A stretch of DNA of 41,129 nucleotides from Oscillochloris sp. ZM17-4. Its GTDB lineage: Bacteria; Chloroflexota; Chloroflexia; Chloroflexales; Chloroflexaceae. The position numbers and the translations under genes were made by a program. Shown in pieces: positions 31,477-34,626 of the stretch. Location of the stretch: positions 78,849 through 119,977 of the forward strand of contig NZ_JAIEWN010000007.1 of assembly GCF_019599295.1 (NCBI RefSeq). The letters are read 5' to 3'. A model generated the notes under the pieces. That model was not told the DNA's origin and did not search any database. It was given only the letters and a program-made list of their open reading frames with translations. Positions within the stretch are counted from its first letter, which is position 1. The number at the start of each line of letters is the position of its first letter.

Positions 31477-32928
31477 TCAGGGGGCCGGCGACGCCCCTGC
31501 GGTAAGCGTGAACGTATCCAGGTCGGCGACGCCAAAGCGCTGCCCGTCGGTGCGGAACCTGATCGTGTGCGATCCTGCCGCAATCCTCCCGAGGTCAATT
31601 GGCGCAGTCGTGACGAACTGATCCCAGCTTTTCTGGTCGATCGGGTTGAAGGTCGCCCTTGGGGCCGGCTCATCGTCAAGGTAGACCAGGATGGGGACGG
31701 TCGCCGGGCTGTCTTTGGAGTAGCGCACCTGCAGCAACAGGTGATCGACATCGGGCAGCGTGATATCCCCGTAGCTTACGGAGCCAGGCTGCGCCGGCCA
31801 TGGGGCCGTGCTGGCTGCGCCAAACTGCCCATAAACATACCCATCCGACGCGTGTGATCGGGCGATGTTCACACCTACGCTGCTCTGAGTCACCGCCTCA
31901 CCCTCGCGCGTGTAGGCCCAGGGCGTCGACGCGCGCGGCCAGAGCCAGTACCCGCCCAGGGCCAGCCCCACGCACGCCACCAGTATGCCGACAGCTGGTA
32001 GGCGCACCGCCCCGGCGCGGCGCGGGGGCGACCGCAACACCGGCGCGGCGGGCGCCGAAGTCCTCGGCAGATGGATTGTCGGCGTAGCGACAAGCGGCTG
32101 GCCGTTGAGCACATCGCGCAGGTCGGCCGCCATCTGCTGCGGGGTCTGGTAGCGGTCGTCAGGATCTGCGCGGGTGGCGCGCTGGATCACCTCGGCGATG
32201 CCCTGGCTGGCCTGCGCAGACACGGCGGGCAGCGATGGCGGGCCGGGCGGGGCCGGGTGCGGACAATCCTCATCCGTCAGCATCTCCCAGATACCGATGC
32301 CCAGCGCGTAGAGATCTGTCCGCACATCCACCGGATTCCTGATATCCCGCTGCTCGGGGGGCATATAGTCCCATGTGCCGGGGTGGGGGCCGCCGAGCTG
32401 CGTGGTGGGCTGCCCGGCGCGCCGCTTATCCAGATCCTTGGCGATCCCGAAGTCGCCAAGCTTCACTGCTGTGATCTGGCCCTGCTCATCCGTAAAGAGC
32501 AAGCTGTTCGAGGGCTTGACATCGCGGTGGGCGAACCTGCTGGCGGACACCGCCCCCAGGGCGGCGCAGATATCAAGGGCGATGCGGATGGCCTGTGGCT
32601 CCGGCAGCGGGCCACAGCTGCGCAGGTGGTCGGCGAGCGACCCGCCATTGGCATACTCCATAATCAGGTACTGCTCGTGGGTCAGCGGGTCTTCTGGCTC
32701 AAGATGGTAGACCCGGATAATGTTGGGGTGGTTGAGGATCGTGTGAAGCCGCACCTCTTTTTTAAAGCTATCGATGCACTCCTGATGTGATGAGCGCGCC
32801 TCTTTCACCGCAACCACGCGCCCCATATTATCGACGGCGCGGTAGACCATCCCGCACGCCCCCTTGCCAATCAGTGCGATCTGGGTGTATTTGCCGGATT
32901 GGGCCAAGTAGCTATCTGGGAACGCCAT
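31477..32928 (-). CDS. Membrane Ser/Thr protein kinase with CBM-like extracellular domain
   Basis: This 483-residue Hanks-type kinase has GKGACGMVY (21-29, with GxGxxG replaced by GKGACG), lysine 42 in VAVKEA, the catalytic loop HRDVKPSN (134-141), DFG (159-161) and a P+1 segment GTWDYMPPEQ (184-193). A Pro-rich juxtamembrane region leads to one transmembrane helix (about 310-330, LPAVGILVACVGLALGGYWLW-like). The outer part (about 340-483) ends in a beta-sandwich pattern, LGRIAAGSHTIRFRTDG followed by VADLDTFTL, as in carbohydrate-binding CBM6/CBM35 modules. This suggests a receptor for a glycan, perhaps the cell wall; PASTA repeats are absent. Last gene of a unit; the FHA-winged-helix gene 42 bases upstream is its likely partner. 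Confidence 0.87.
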   Translation of the reverse strand: MAFPDSYLAQSGKYTQIALIGKGACGMVYRAVDNMGRVVAVKEARSSHQECIDSFKKEVRLHTILNHPNIIRVYHLEPEDPLTHEQYLIMEYANGGSLADHLRSCGPLPEPQAIRIALDICAALGAVSASRFAHRDVKPSNSLLFTDEQGQITAVKLGDFGIAKDLDKRRAGQPTTQLGGPHPGTWDYMPPEQRDIRNPVDVRTDLYALGIGIWEMLTDEDCPHPAPPGPPSLPAVSAQASQGIAEVIQRATRADPDDRYQTPQQMAADLRDVLNGQPLVATPTIHLPRTSAPAAPVLRSPPRRAGAVRLPAVGILVACVGLALGGYWLWPRASTPWAYTREGEAVTQSSVGVNIARSHASDGYVYGQFGAASTAPWPAQPGSVSYGDITLPDVDHLLLQVRYSKDSPATVPILVYLDDEPAPRATFNPIDQKSWDQFVTTAPIDLGRIAAGSHTIRFRTDGQRFGVADLDTFTLTAGASPAP

Positions 32929-32970
32929 GCCCGCACCCCCTCTGCGCTGCGGTCGATCATTGCCCCCATT

Positions 32971-33756
32971 CTACTCGGTGGCGTTGTCACATGGTAGTTG
33001 GCATTGGCTTGGCGAATCCTTGCAGAAACCTGATATGCACGAGGTTCGCAGACAGAGCCCCTCCCCGCGGATCGTCTCGATCAGCGCCAGGCCCCCGCTC
33101 GCCTCGCTGATCTCCCTCCGGATACGCGATAGGATCGAATTCAAGGACTCTCTTCGGATCGAGTACTCATCGGGGTCGCTGCGCAGCTTCGCAAGGTATG
33201 CCTGTACCAGCTCAGGGGTACGTGGATCTGGCGCCCAGATCGTGGCCAGGATGTCTGCATAGGGGCAGATCTGATTTTTTTTGCTGTAGAGGTATTCCAG
33301 CAGCGCATACTCTTGCGGCCTAAAGCTCACCAGCTGGCCAAAGATCCTGAAGTGCGGCGGCGCGCAGCGCTCGATCTCCAGGCAGGTCGTGGCATTATCG
33401 AGATAGAACAGGATCGAGAAGTAGGGGTCTGCTGGGTCGGTCAGCACGCCGGGGATCTGGAAGCCATAGCCGCTCTGGAGGGCGCACTGATCGCCGAGCA
33501 GCAGGAGCTTCTCATAGAGGCGAATGCCCGTGCGCCCGCGCACATTCTTCAGGGTGTAGCTCGTCCCCTCGCCCGGCTTCGGCACGACGACAGCGGCGTG
33601 CTTGCGCGATACCTGTGGGAGGTCGAGATTGACCCCGGCCTCGCTCTCCTCCAGCCGACCGATGCTGATCTCGCCGTCGGTAAGCAGCACTCTGCGCCAG
33701 ACCTTCAACGGCTCGGTCGAGCGGCGAATCTCAAGGTAGGCCTTGTCCTGCTCCAT
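32971..33756 (-). CDS. FHA domain - winged-helix (OmpR-type) transcriptional regulator
   Basis: This 261-residue protein combines an FHA domain (about 10-110, with SIGR 31-34, SRKH 50-53 and N71 for phosphothreonine binding) and a C-terminal winged helix of the OmpR/trans_reg_C type (about 140-235: VSFRPQEYALLEYLYSKKNQ, then ILSRIRREI and IETIRGEGLCLRT). There is no response-regulator receiver. It is followed directly by a Ser/Thr kinase, so phospho-dependent control is likely. The pair recalls mycobacterial PknH and EmbR, but the domain order is reversed and there is no BTAD domain. The tail has four cysteines (SCISGFCKDSPSQCQLPC). ATG 33756 has GAGGAG complementary to 33765-33770, overlapping the stop of the preceding gene. 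Confidence 0.83.
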   Translation of the reverse strand: MEQDKAYLEIRRSTEPLKVWRRVLLTDGEISIGRLEESEAGVNLDLPQVSRKHAAVVVPKPGEGTSYTLKNVRGRTGIRLYEKLLLLGDQCALQSGYGFQIPGVLTDPADPYFSILFYLDNATTCLEIERCAPPHFRIFGQLVSFRPQEYALLEYLYSKKNQICPYADILATIWAPDPRTPELVQAYLAKLRSDPDEYSIRRESLNSILSRIRREISEASGGLALIETIRGEGLCLRTSCISGFCKDSPSQCQLPCDNATE

Positions 33757-33768
33757 TGCAGTAGCTCC

Positions 33769-34626
33769 TCAGACAAATGTGGATCGCTGGAAGAGGTAGT
33801 CGCCGGCGCGGCGCAGGCTGACCGGCCGCAGGCGCGGCGGGGCGTCGGGGCTGAAGCCGACCCCCTCGACGAGGCTGGGGCGCGGCGGGCGGCCGGGCGG
33901 GCTGCCGATCACGATCGGGCTGATGGTGAGGAAGGTCTCGTCGATCATGCCGGCGGCGATCAGGGCGCCGTAGATTCTGGCCCCGCCCTCGCTGAGCAGG
34001 TGGCGCACGCCGTGGCGCGTCCGCAGCTCGGCCATGAGCGCGGCGAGGTCGACCGAGTCGCCGGGCGAGATGTGGTAGCTGAGGCCGGGGCGGTCGCCGA
34101 GGCTGGCGCGGGCGCGCGCGGCGCCGGCGGCGGTGGTGGCCAGCAGGGCGGGCTGCGGGTCGCCGCGCAGGGCGTCGGCGTCGGCCGGCAGGTCGCCGCT
34201 GGCGCTGGCGACGACCAGCAGGGGCACGGGGGCGCGGCCCTCGGCGGCGCGCAGCTCGGCGAAGGTGCGGGCGTCGTCGGGGAAGACCTGGCCGGGCGTC
34301 CAGAGGTGGCGGCGGGCCACGCGCAGGGTGCCGGAGCCGGTGATGATCGCGTCGGCGCGGGCGCGGAGCAGCGCCATGAGCCAGGTGTCGTGGCGGGAGT
34401 GGCGGCTGACATCGCCGCCGCCGGAGCGCCCCGGCTCATCGAAGGAGATCCGCCCGTCGTGGGAGGCCACAAAGTTGGTGAAGACGTATGGCCGTTGGGC
34501 GGGCGGGTCGGGCAGATGCCAGTCGCCGTCGTAGATCGCGCGGAGCGGCGCGGGGAGGCCGGGCCCGTCGCGGGGGCCATCGTCGAAGAGCAGGGTGTAG
34601 GGGGAGCCGGGGCCGAGGGGGGACAT
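33769..34626 (-). CDS. RibD C-terminal domain-like reductase
   Basis: This 285-residue protein has the RibD-C/dihydrofolate-reductase-like fold of pyrimidine reductases. Landmarks are PYVFTNFVASHDGRISF at about 46-62, DTWLMALLRARADAIITGSGT, the VRHLLSEGGARIYGALI segment, and the IDETFLTISPIVIG end. In riboflavin synthesis such a domain reduces the ribosyl side chain; stand-alone members act on unknown substrates. The N-terminal deaminase half of RibD is absent. Only 3 bases separate it from the Psd-like gene before it, and it ends within the ribosome site of the FHA gene. No FMN riboswitch precedes this unit. Start ATG 34626 lacks a clear ribosome site. Confidence 0.8.
   Translation of the reverse strand: MSPLGPGSPYTLLFDDGPRDGPGLPAPLRAIYDGDWHLPDPPAQRPYVFTNFVASHDGRISFDEPGRSGGGDVSRHSRHDTWLMALLRARADAIITGSGTLRVARRHLWTPGQVFPDDARTFAELRAAEGRAPVPLLVVASASGDLPADADALRGDPQPALLATTAAGAARARASLGDRPGLSYHISPGDSVDLAALMAELRTRHGVRHLLSEGGARIYGALIAAGMIDETFLTISPIVIGSPPGRPPRPSLVEGVGFSPDAPPRLRPVSLRRAGDYLFQRSTFV

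Follow-up and report, generated by a model that had tools for sequence, protein, structure and literature searches.

Does a receptor kinase encoded beside a phosphothreonine-reading regulator pass its signal directly to genes? The question is raised by two adjacent genes in the window, the 41,129-nucleotide stretch of Oscillochloris sp. ZM17-4 DNA analyzed here, which is part of a 6.7-Mb genome. A first-pass annotation had proposed a short path in which a glycan sensed outside the cell activates the kinase, and the kinase modifies the regulator. The genes at issue and their upstream neighbor are as follows.

33769..34626, minus strand: RibD_C reductase gene, 12 bp upstream of the regulator gene (spacing)
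32971..33756, minus strand: FHA and OmpR-type winged-helix regulator, 261 residues (ORF, Pfam, model, fold matches and homologues)
31477..32928, minus strand: Hanks-type (PknB-type) receptor kinase, 483 residues (ORF, Pfam and PknB match)

The kinase gene follows the regulator gene on the same strand after a gap of 42 bp, and a purine-rich sequence resembling a ribosome-binding site stands at the start of each. Further upstream, a phosphatidylserine-decarboxylase-like gene precedes the RibD_C gene. Because the successive spacings are short (3, 12, and 42 bp) and all four genes lie on one strand, they may be co-transcribed. A promoter scan returned nothing useful for the regulator-kinase pair. 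Close relatives of the window belong to Chloroflexales and Herpetosiphon. A mobile or phage origin of the pair was rejected, the regulator having no relative in viral contigs or plasmids; the kinase matched 24 phage records, none at 80% query coverage or more (the five matches listed cover 55–62%), which we read as ordinary similarity between kinase domains.

The regulator is composed of two domains, the second of which carries an additional helix.

33391..33756, minus strand: FHA domain, residues 1–122 (fold matches, alignment of 77 relatives)
33040..33381, minus strand: OmpR/PhoB-type winged-helix DNA-binding domain, residues 126–239 (Pfam Trans_reg_C; CovR, PrrA, and GlnR fold matches; ArlR/PhoB profile match)
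33175..33219, minus strand: extra helix ahead of the recognition helix, residues about 180–194 (four-sequence alignment; helix 181–193 in the model)

A structure model built from four sequences (mean pLDDT 78) consists of an FHA sandwich (residues 1–122) and a winged helix (residues 126 to about 239). The FHA part matches the folds of MDC1 (Z 14.4) and of the EmbR FHA domain (2fez, Z 13.4, 27% identity), and a profile made from the four regulators picks up the EmbR FHA domain by sequence too (E 4.9e-5). The Pfam FHA match (6.7e-4, 20.5 bits) falls just below the 20.7-bit cut-off. The DNA-binding part is recognized as Trans_reg_C above the Pfam cut-off (7.3e-11), matches CovR with a Z score of 12.7, and has the features of an OmpR/PhoB DNA-binding domain. 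Pfam, model, and fold matches agree that the FHA domain is joined directly to an OmpR-type DNA-binding domain, as had been claimed from the sequence; the receiver domain of OmpR/PhoB response regulators is absent, and the FHA domain occupies its N-terminal place. In the alignment, the three closest relatives lack both the inserted helix and the disordered tail formed by residues 239–261. The inserted helix, ELVQAYLAKLRSD (33175-33219), resembles a second recognition helix placed just before the real one, and SaeR aligns to it; the likeness may stem from duplication or from chance.

The further claim that the FHA domain keeps its phosphothreonine-binding residues was not confirmed as it stood, since the pocket is preserved only in part. 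The fold and the G-R and S-x-x-H residues of the phosphothreonine-binding class are present, with G33, R34, S50, R51, and H53 kept in the window regulator and G33, R34, S50, and H53 conserved in 76 or 77 of the 77 FHA-winged-helix proteins of the phylum assembled below. What is missing is the Asn of the N-G motif, which in FHA domains contacts the phosphopeptide: it is replaced by T76 in the window regulator and by Tyr in its three closest relatives. This Asn is present in 73 of the 77 proteins, and Thr or Tyr is found only in the four members of the window clade; since the loss is confined to that clade, phosphothreonine binding by its FHA domains may be weak or altered.

The kinase comprises a catalytic domain, a membrane helix, and an outer module.

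32074..32895, minus strand: kinase domain with intact catalytic motifs, residues 12–285 (PknB alignment, motif positions)
31939..31995, minus strand: single transmembrane helix, residues 312–330 (hydrophobic character of the sequence)
31480..31920, minus strand: ectodomain, a CBM6/CBM35-like jelly roll, residues 337–483 (Pfam CBM_6 below cut-off, CITase CBM matches, fold matches, weak model)

The catalytic domain is identified by Pfam (Pkinase, 4.3e-37) and by alignment with PknB (2e-30), and its motifs GKGACG, AVKEA, HRDVKPSN, and DFG are intact. It carries the Hanks-type (PknB-like) features, namely the P-loop, VAIK-type Lys, HRD, DFG, and an APE region in which PPEQ replaces APEQ. Assignment to the PASTA kinases (PknB/Stk1 equivalog) was rejected, the NCBIfam match scoring 164.5 bits on the kinase part alone vs a cut-off of 450 and no PASTA domain being found by Pfam. 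In the activation loop, T175-T176 (PTTQLGG) aligns near the VTQT stretch of PknB. This loop also resembles TQLGT, described in a part of PMC4601284 as the core autophosphorylation motif of PknH; we give the likeness no weight because the relatives of the window kinase have TTVFPG and the like.

The outer module had been said to resemble a carbohydrate-binding domain, and its best matches, by both sequence and fold, are indeed CBMs. Pfam detects CBM_6 below its 28.9-bit gathering cut-off, whether in the whole kinase (0.0073, 17.0 bits) or in the ectodomain alone (5e-4, 20.8 bits). The best sequence matches among solved structures are the CBMs of cycloisomaltooligosaccharide glucanotransferase (CITase; E 0.036 to 0.1), and the best fold matches of a single-sequence model are of the CBM35/CBM6 type (Z up to 8.5). 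Structure prediction, suggested earlier as a check for both proteins, gave FHA and OmpR-type matches for the regulator and, on a weak model (mean pLDDT 52.8), CBM35/CBM6 matches for the ectodomain. A CBM6/35-like fold is likely, and the ligand is perhaps a glycan, the resemblance to CBM6/35 being remote. Alternatively, the module could have this fold and bind no glycan, acting as a spacer, a dimerization module, or a protein-binding module; we give this not quite an even chance, and it is compatible with either reading of a functional pair discussed below. Apart from the subthreshold Pfam score and the low model confidence, it is favored by the Eph ligand-binding domains, which match the same model at Z 7–8, and by an Asp that aligns with the Asn of the 'AINLD'-type loop, an Asn that we take to be a sugar contact. 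Against it stand the CBM matches themselves and the only other class relative of the ectodomain, a weak match among 158 class genomes, which lies in a protein whose PDB-like neighbors are glucanotransferases (by eye). No relative of the ectodomain was found in viral contigs.

Is the kinase a constant companion of the regulator? When the 158 class genomes were searched with the window regulator, close relatives were found only in G029, G032, and G043 (Herpetosiphon geysericola). In G029, the kinase gene lies directly downstream on the same strand, and in G043 it lies one FHA-membrane gene further downstream. The protein encoded by the intervening Herpetosiphon geysericola gene (L036, 9488-10174) is hydrophobic in its N-terminal part and carries, at its C-terminal end, an FHA domain with a canonical N-G motif. 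In G032, the regulator contig and the kinase contig end in the same repeat at facing ends; contigs broken at a repeat are compatible with adjacency and do not prove it. An ORF for a SpoIIE-type (PP2C-like) phosphatase in G032 (L037, 869-1774) runs divergently from the FHA-winged-helix gene, whose called start it overlaps; it is a possible off-switch for the pair. Over the 158 genomes, a close regulator occurs in four, a close kinase (E 1e-35 or better) in seven, and both in four (hypergeometric P 1.4e-6, with thresholds picked after seeing the data). No FHA-winged-helix match was found near the window-clade kinases of G050 and G034. The G050 kinase (L143, 1046-4096), whose ectodomain is of the SBP_bac_3 type, has an AraC-type regulator gene directly upstream.

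Comparison of the six window-clade kinases reveals catalytic domains that are 45–67% identical. The five ectodomains available, that of G029 being cut by a contig end, have no convincing mutual similarity: the best pair reaches E 0.002 across a 66-residue stretch that is Pro/Thr-rich by eye, and the window ectodomain has no match among the remaining four. Pfam assigns SBP_bac_3 to the ectodomain of G050 (5.8e-10), DUF2807 to that of G032 (4.8e-29), PASTA to that of G034 (2.8e-7), and, below cut-off, 3keto-disac_hyd (3-keto-disaccharide-hydrolase-like, 0.0066) to that of G043. Because related kinases carry unrelated ectodomains, this kinase chassis would take several kinds of input, a glycan being one of them.

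The pairing extends beyond the clade. A profile of four regulators, run against 400 genomes drawn from a larger phylum set, gave 90 matches, from which 15 consisting of the DNA-binding domain only were excluded; the 75 that cover both domains (window, G043, and G501:C48 included), together with G029 and G032, form the set of 77. A kinase gene lies within 1.5 kb in 46 of the 77, the window counted (40 divergent, 6 tandem). The other 31 include two further copies in the window's own genome, and a few, G032 among them, lie at contig ends. The background was computed on 61 of the first 64 loci, G029, G043, and G032 having no kinase count and 12 later-added loci being left out: a kinase is near in 36 of the 61, vs 0.8 expected from per-genome kinase counts, which excludes chance adjacency, although the P value overstates independence and is not literal because the loci are related to each other. 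On a tree of 65 of the proteins, the label for a kinase near or none changes nine times. The kinds of kinase differ by clade: there are short kinases whose membrane helix lies close to the C terminus, a fusion of a kinase to NACHT, kinases whose outer stretches look proline-rich by eye, and the receptor type of the window. The fusion (L126, 1-3564, minus strand) is a large kinase joined to a NACHT NTPase (Pfam) and divergent to an FHA-winged-helix gene, as is another large kinase (L091, 1-2574, minus strand) that is like it by eye. Other FHA-winged-helix proteins encoded in the window's own genome number two, probably three (L122, L123, and L003), and no kinase was found within 4 kb of L122 or L123. 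Adjacency that is conserved in the window clade, and also for many FHA-winged-helix proteins elsewhere in the phylum, gives the proposed kinase-regulator pair strong comparative support, and a direct kinase-to-gene switch is likely on these sequence grounds. In the open-access literature, our searches found no FHA/winged-helix/kinase combination in Chloroflexi, which does not prove the architecture undescribed, no CBM with a Hanks-type kinase, no Trans_reg_C, FHA, and kinase combination beyond reference-list mentions of FHA and EmbR, and, by titles, nothing on an FHA-kinase pair in Herpetosiphon.

Where would such a kinase act on the regulator? The alignment of the 77 relatives points to one residue.

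33388..33390, minus strand: linker Thr123, candidate phospho-acceptor, right after the FHA fold (alignment of 77 relatives)

Thr occupies this linker column in 73 of the 77 proteins and lies within one residue of it in 75. In the 65 proteins aligned first, the column falls six residues past an invariably aromatic position (Phe or Tyr) and is accompanied by Asp or Glu at −2 (49/65), Pro at +2 (40/65), and Leu at +3 (37/65). The model has pLDDT below 50 at residues 122–125, T123 included. Among 20 FHA loci of the same genome used as a control, the three that resemble FHA-winged-helix proteins all have the linker-Thr motif; the script flags three of the other 17 (L013, L015, and L018), L015 being out of register by eye, and in FHA proteins without a winged helix the Thr is mostly missing. 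T123 is a good candidate for, and the likeliest, phosphorylation site in the regulator. A structural role is possible instead, because conservation of the Thr extends to regulators that lack a kinase neighbor.

We infer a tandem Ser/Thr signaling pair, a reading we consider slightly more probable than even. The kinase would span the membrane and expose its CBM6/35-like module on the outer side, and ligand binding or clustering would lead to trans-autophosphorylation of the activation loop at T175/T176. The FHA domain would then dock on a kinase phosphothreonine, bringing in the regulator to be phosphorylated, most likely on T123 beside the FHA fold. The phosphorylated linker would be bound by its own or a neighboring FHA domain, which would alter how the winged helix dimerizes or binds DNA; the regulator would then switch its target genes, perhaps with its own operon among them. 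PknH phosphorylates EmbR in a manner that depends on the FHA domain, and FHA domains can bind a phosphothreonine of their own protein, as stated in parts of PMC4601284; in OdhI, the FHA domain is the kinase docking site, according to a part of PMC8546545.

Two other readings have to be weighed against this signaling pair. The two proteins could be a functional pair in which the regulator, docked on the kinase through its FHA domain, is never phosphorylated, tethering to the membrane alone silencing or activating it. The retained FHA fold with R34, S50, and H53 fits such sequestration, and many divergent partner kinases are short and have a single membrane helix close to the C terminus, which would anchor them in the membrane; the near-invariant linker Thr (73/77), however, is needless for pure tethering, and loss of the N-G Asn should weaken the docking, so that we regard this reading as unlikely. 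That same loss fits co-transcribed neighbors acting apart, the regulator answering another kinase or a ligand of its own and the kinase having other targets, as do the 31 of 77 relatives with no kinase neighbor and the window-clade kinases of G050 and G034 that occur with no regulator beside them. The excess of adjacency over expectation (36 of 61 vs 0.8) and the recurrence of the pairing with different kinase types and in both orientations argue the other way, and independent action appears improbable to us. The signaling pair is of interest because the pairing recurs, its sensors are interchangeable, and the linker Thr can be tested. For few bacterial Hanks kinases are the activating signal and its route to the genes known; with a dedicated pair, a recognizable sensor, and a single candidate acceptor, two purified proteins are enough to test the entire path, and ectodomain swaps on a common kinase chassis would illustrate how receptors of this kind acquire new inputs.

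In OmpR/PhoB-type two-component systems, the gene of a membrane sensor adjoins that of a winged-helix regulator and the sensors are swappable; in the window pair, a Ser/Thr kinase and an FHA domain replace the histidine kinase and the receiver domain. The nearest concept named at the outset was PknH-EmbR of Mycobacterium tuberculosis, with a different domain order and sensor, and this comparison proved apt. Both systems combine a receptor Ser/Thr kinase with a regulator that has OmpR-type DNA-binding and FHA domains, but EmbR is organized as wHTH-BTAD-FHA, whereas the window regulator is FHA-wHTH in 261 residues: its FHA domain is N-terminal instead of C-terminal, and its DNA-binding domain (residues 126–239) is C-terminal. 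No BTAD match was found in the regulator at E up to 1, and there is no room for one, the wHTH directly following FHA 1–122. The sensor differs too, and the N-G Asn is lost in the window regulator. Membership of the EmbR family was rejected because its domain order is reversed and BTAD, the other defining feature tested, is absent. The pair most likely works like PknH-EmbR and is best read as the Ser/Thr equivalent of a two-component pair.

Two further FHA proteins share single traits with the window regulator. EspM of mycobacteria likewise has an N-terminal FHA domain and a C-terminal DNA-binding region; unlike the window regulator, it has a helical bundle flanked by two HTH domains, and the portion of PMC11005418 describing it mentions no partner kinase. 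In OdhI/GarA with PknG/PknB, as in the proposed pair, the acceptor Thr lies outside the FHA fold, and the autophosphorylated kinase is the docking partner of the FHA domain (PMC8546545), but these are enzyme inhibitors with no DNA-binding domain and the acceptor Thr is N-terminal. More broadly, the FHA-winged-helix regulators and their Ser/Thr kinase neighbors might form a phylum-wide class in Chloroflexota, a generalization that is tentative and on balance doubtful: a Ser/Thr counterpart of two-component systems in which the linker Thr would serve as receiver site, recognized by the FHA domain of the regulator itself, and in which the kinase chassis of the window clade would carry interchangeable outer sensors (CBM-like, solute-binding, DUF2807, and PASTA).
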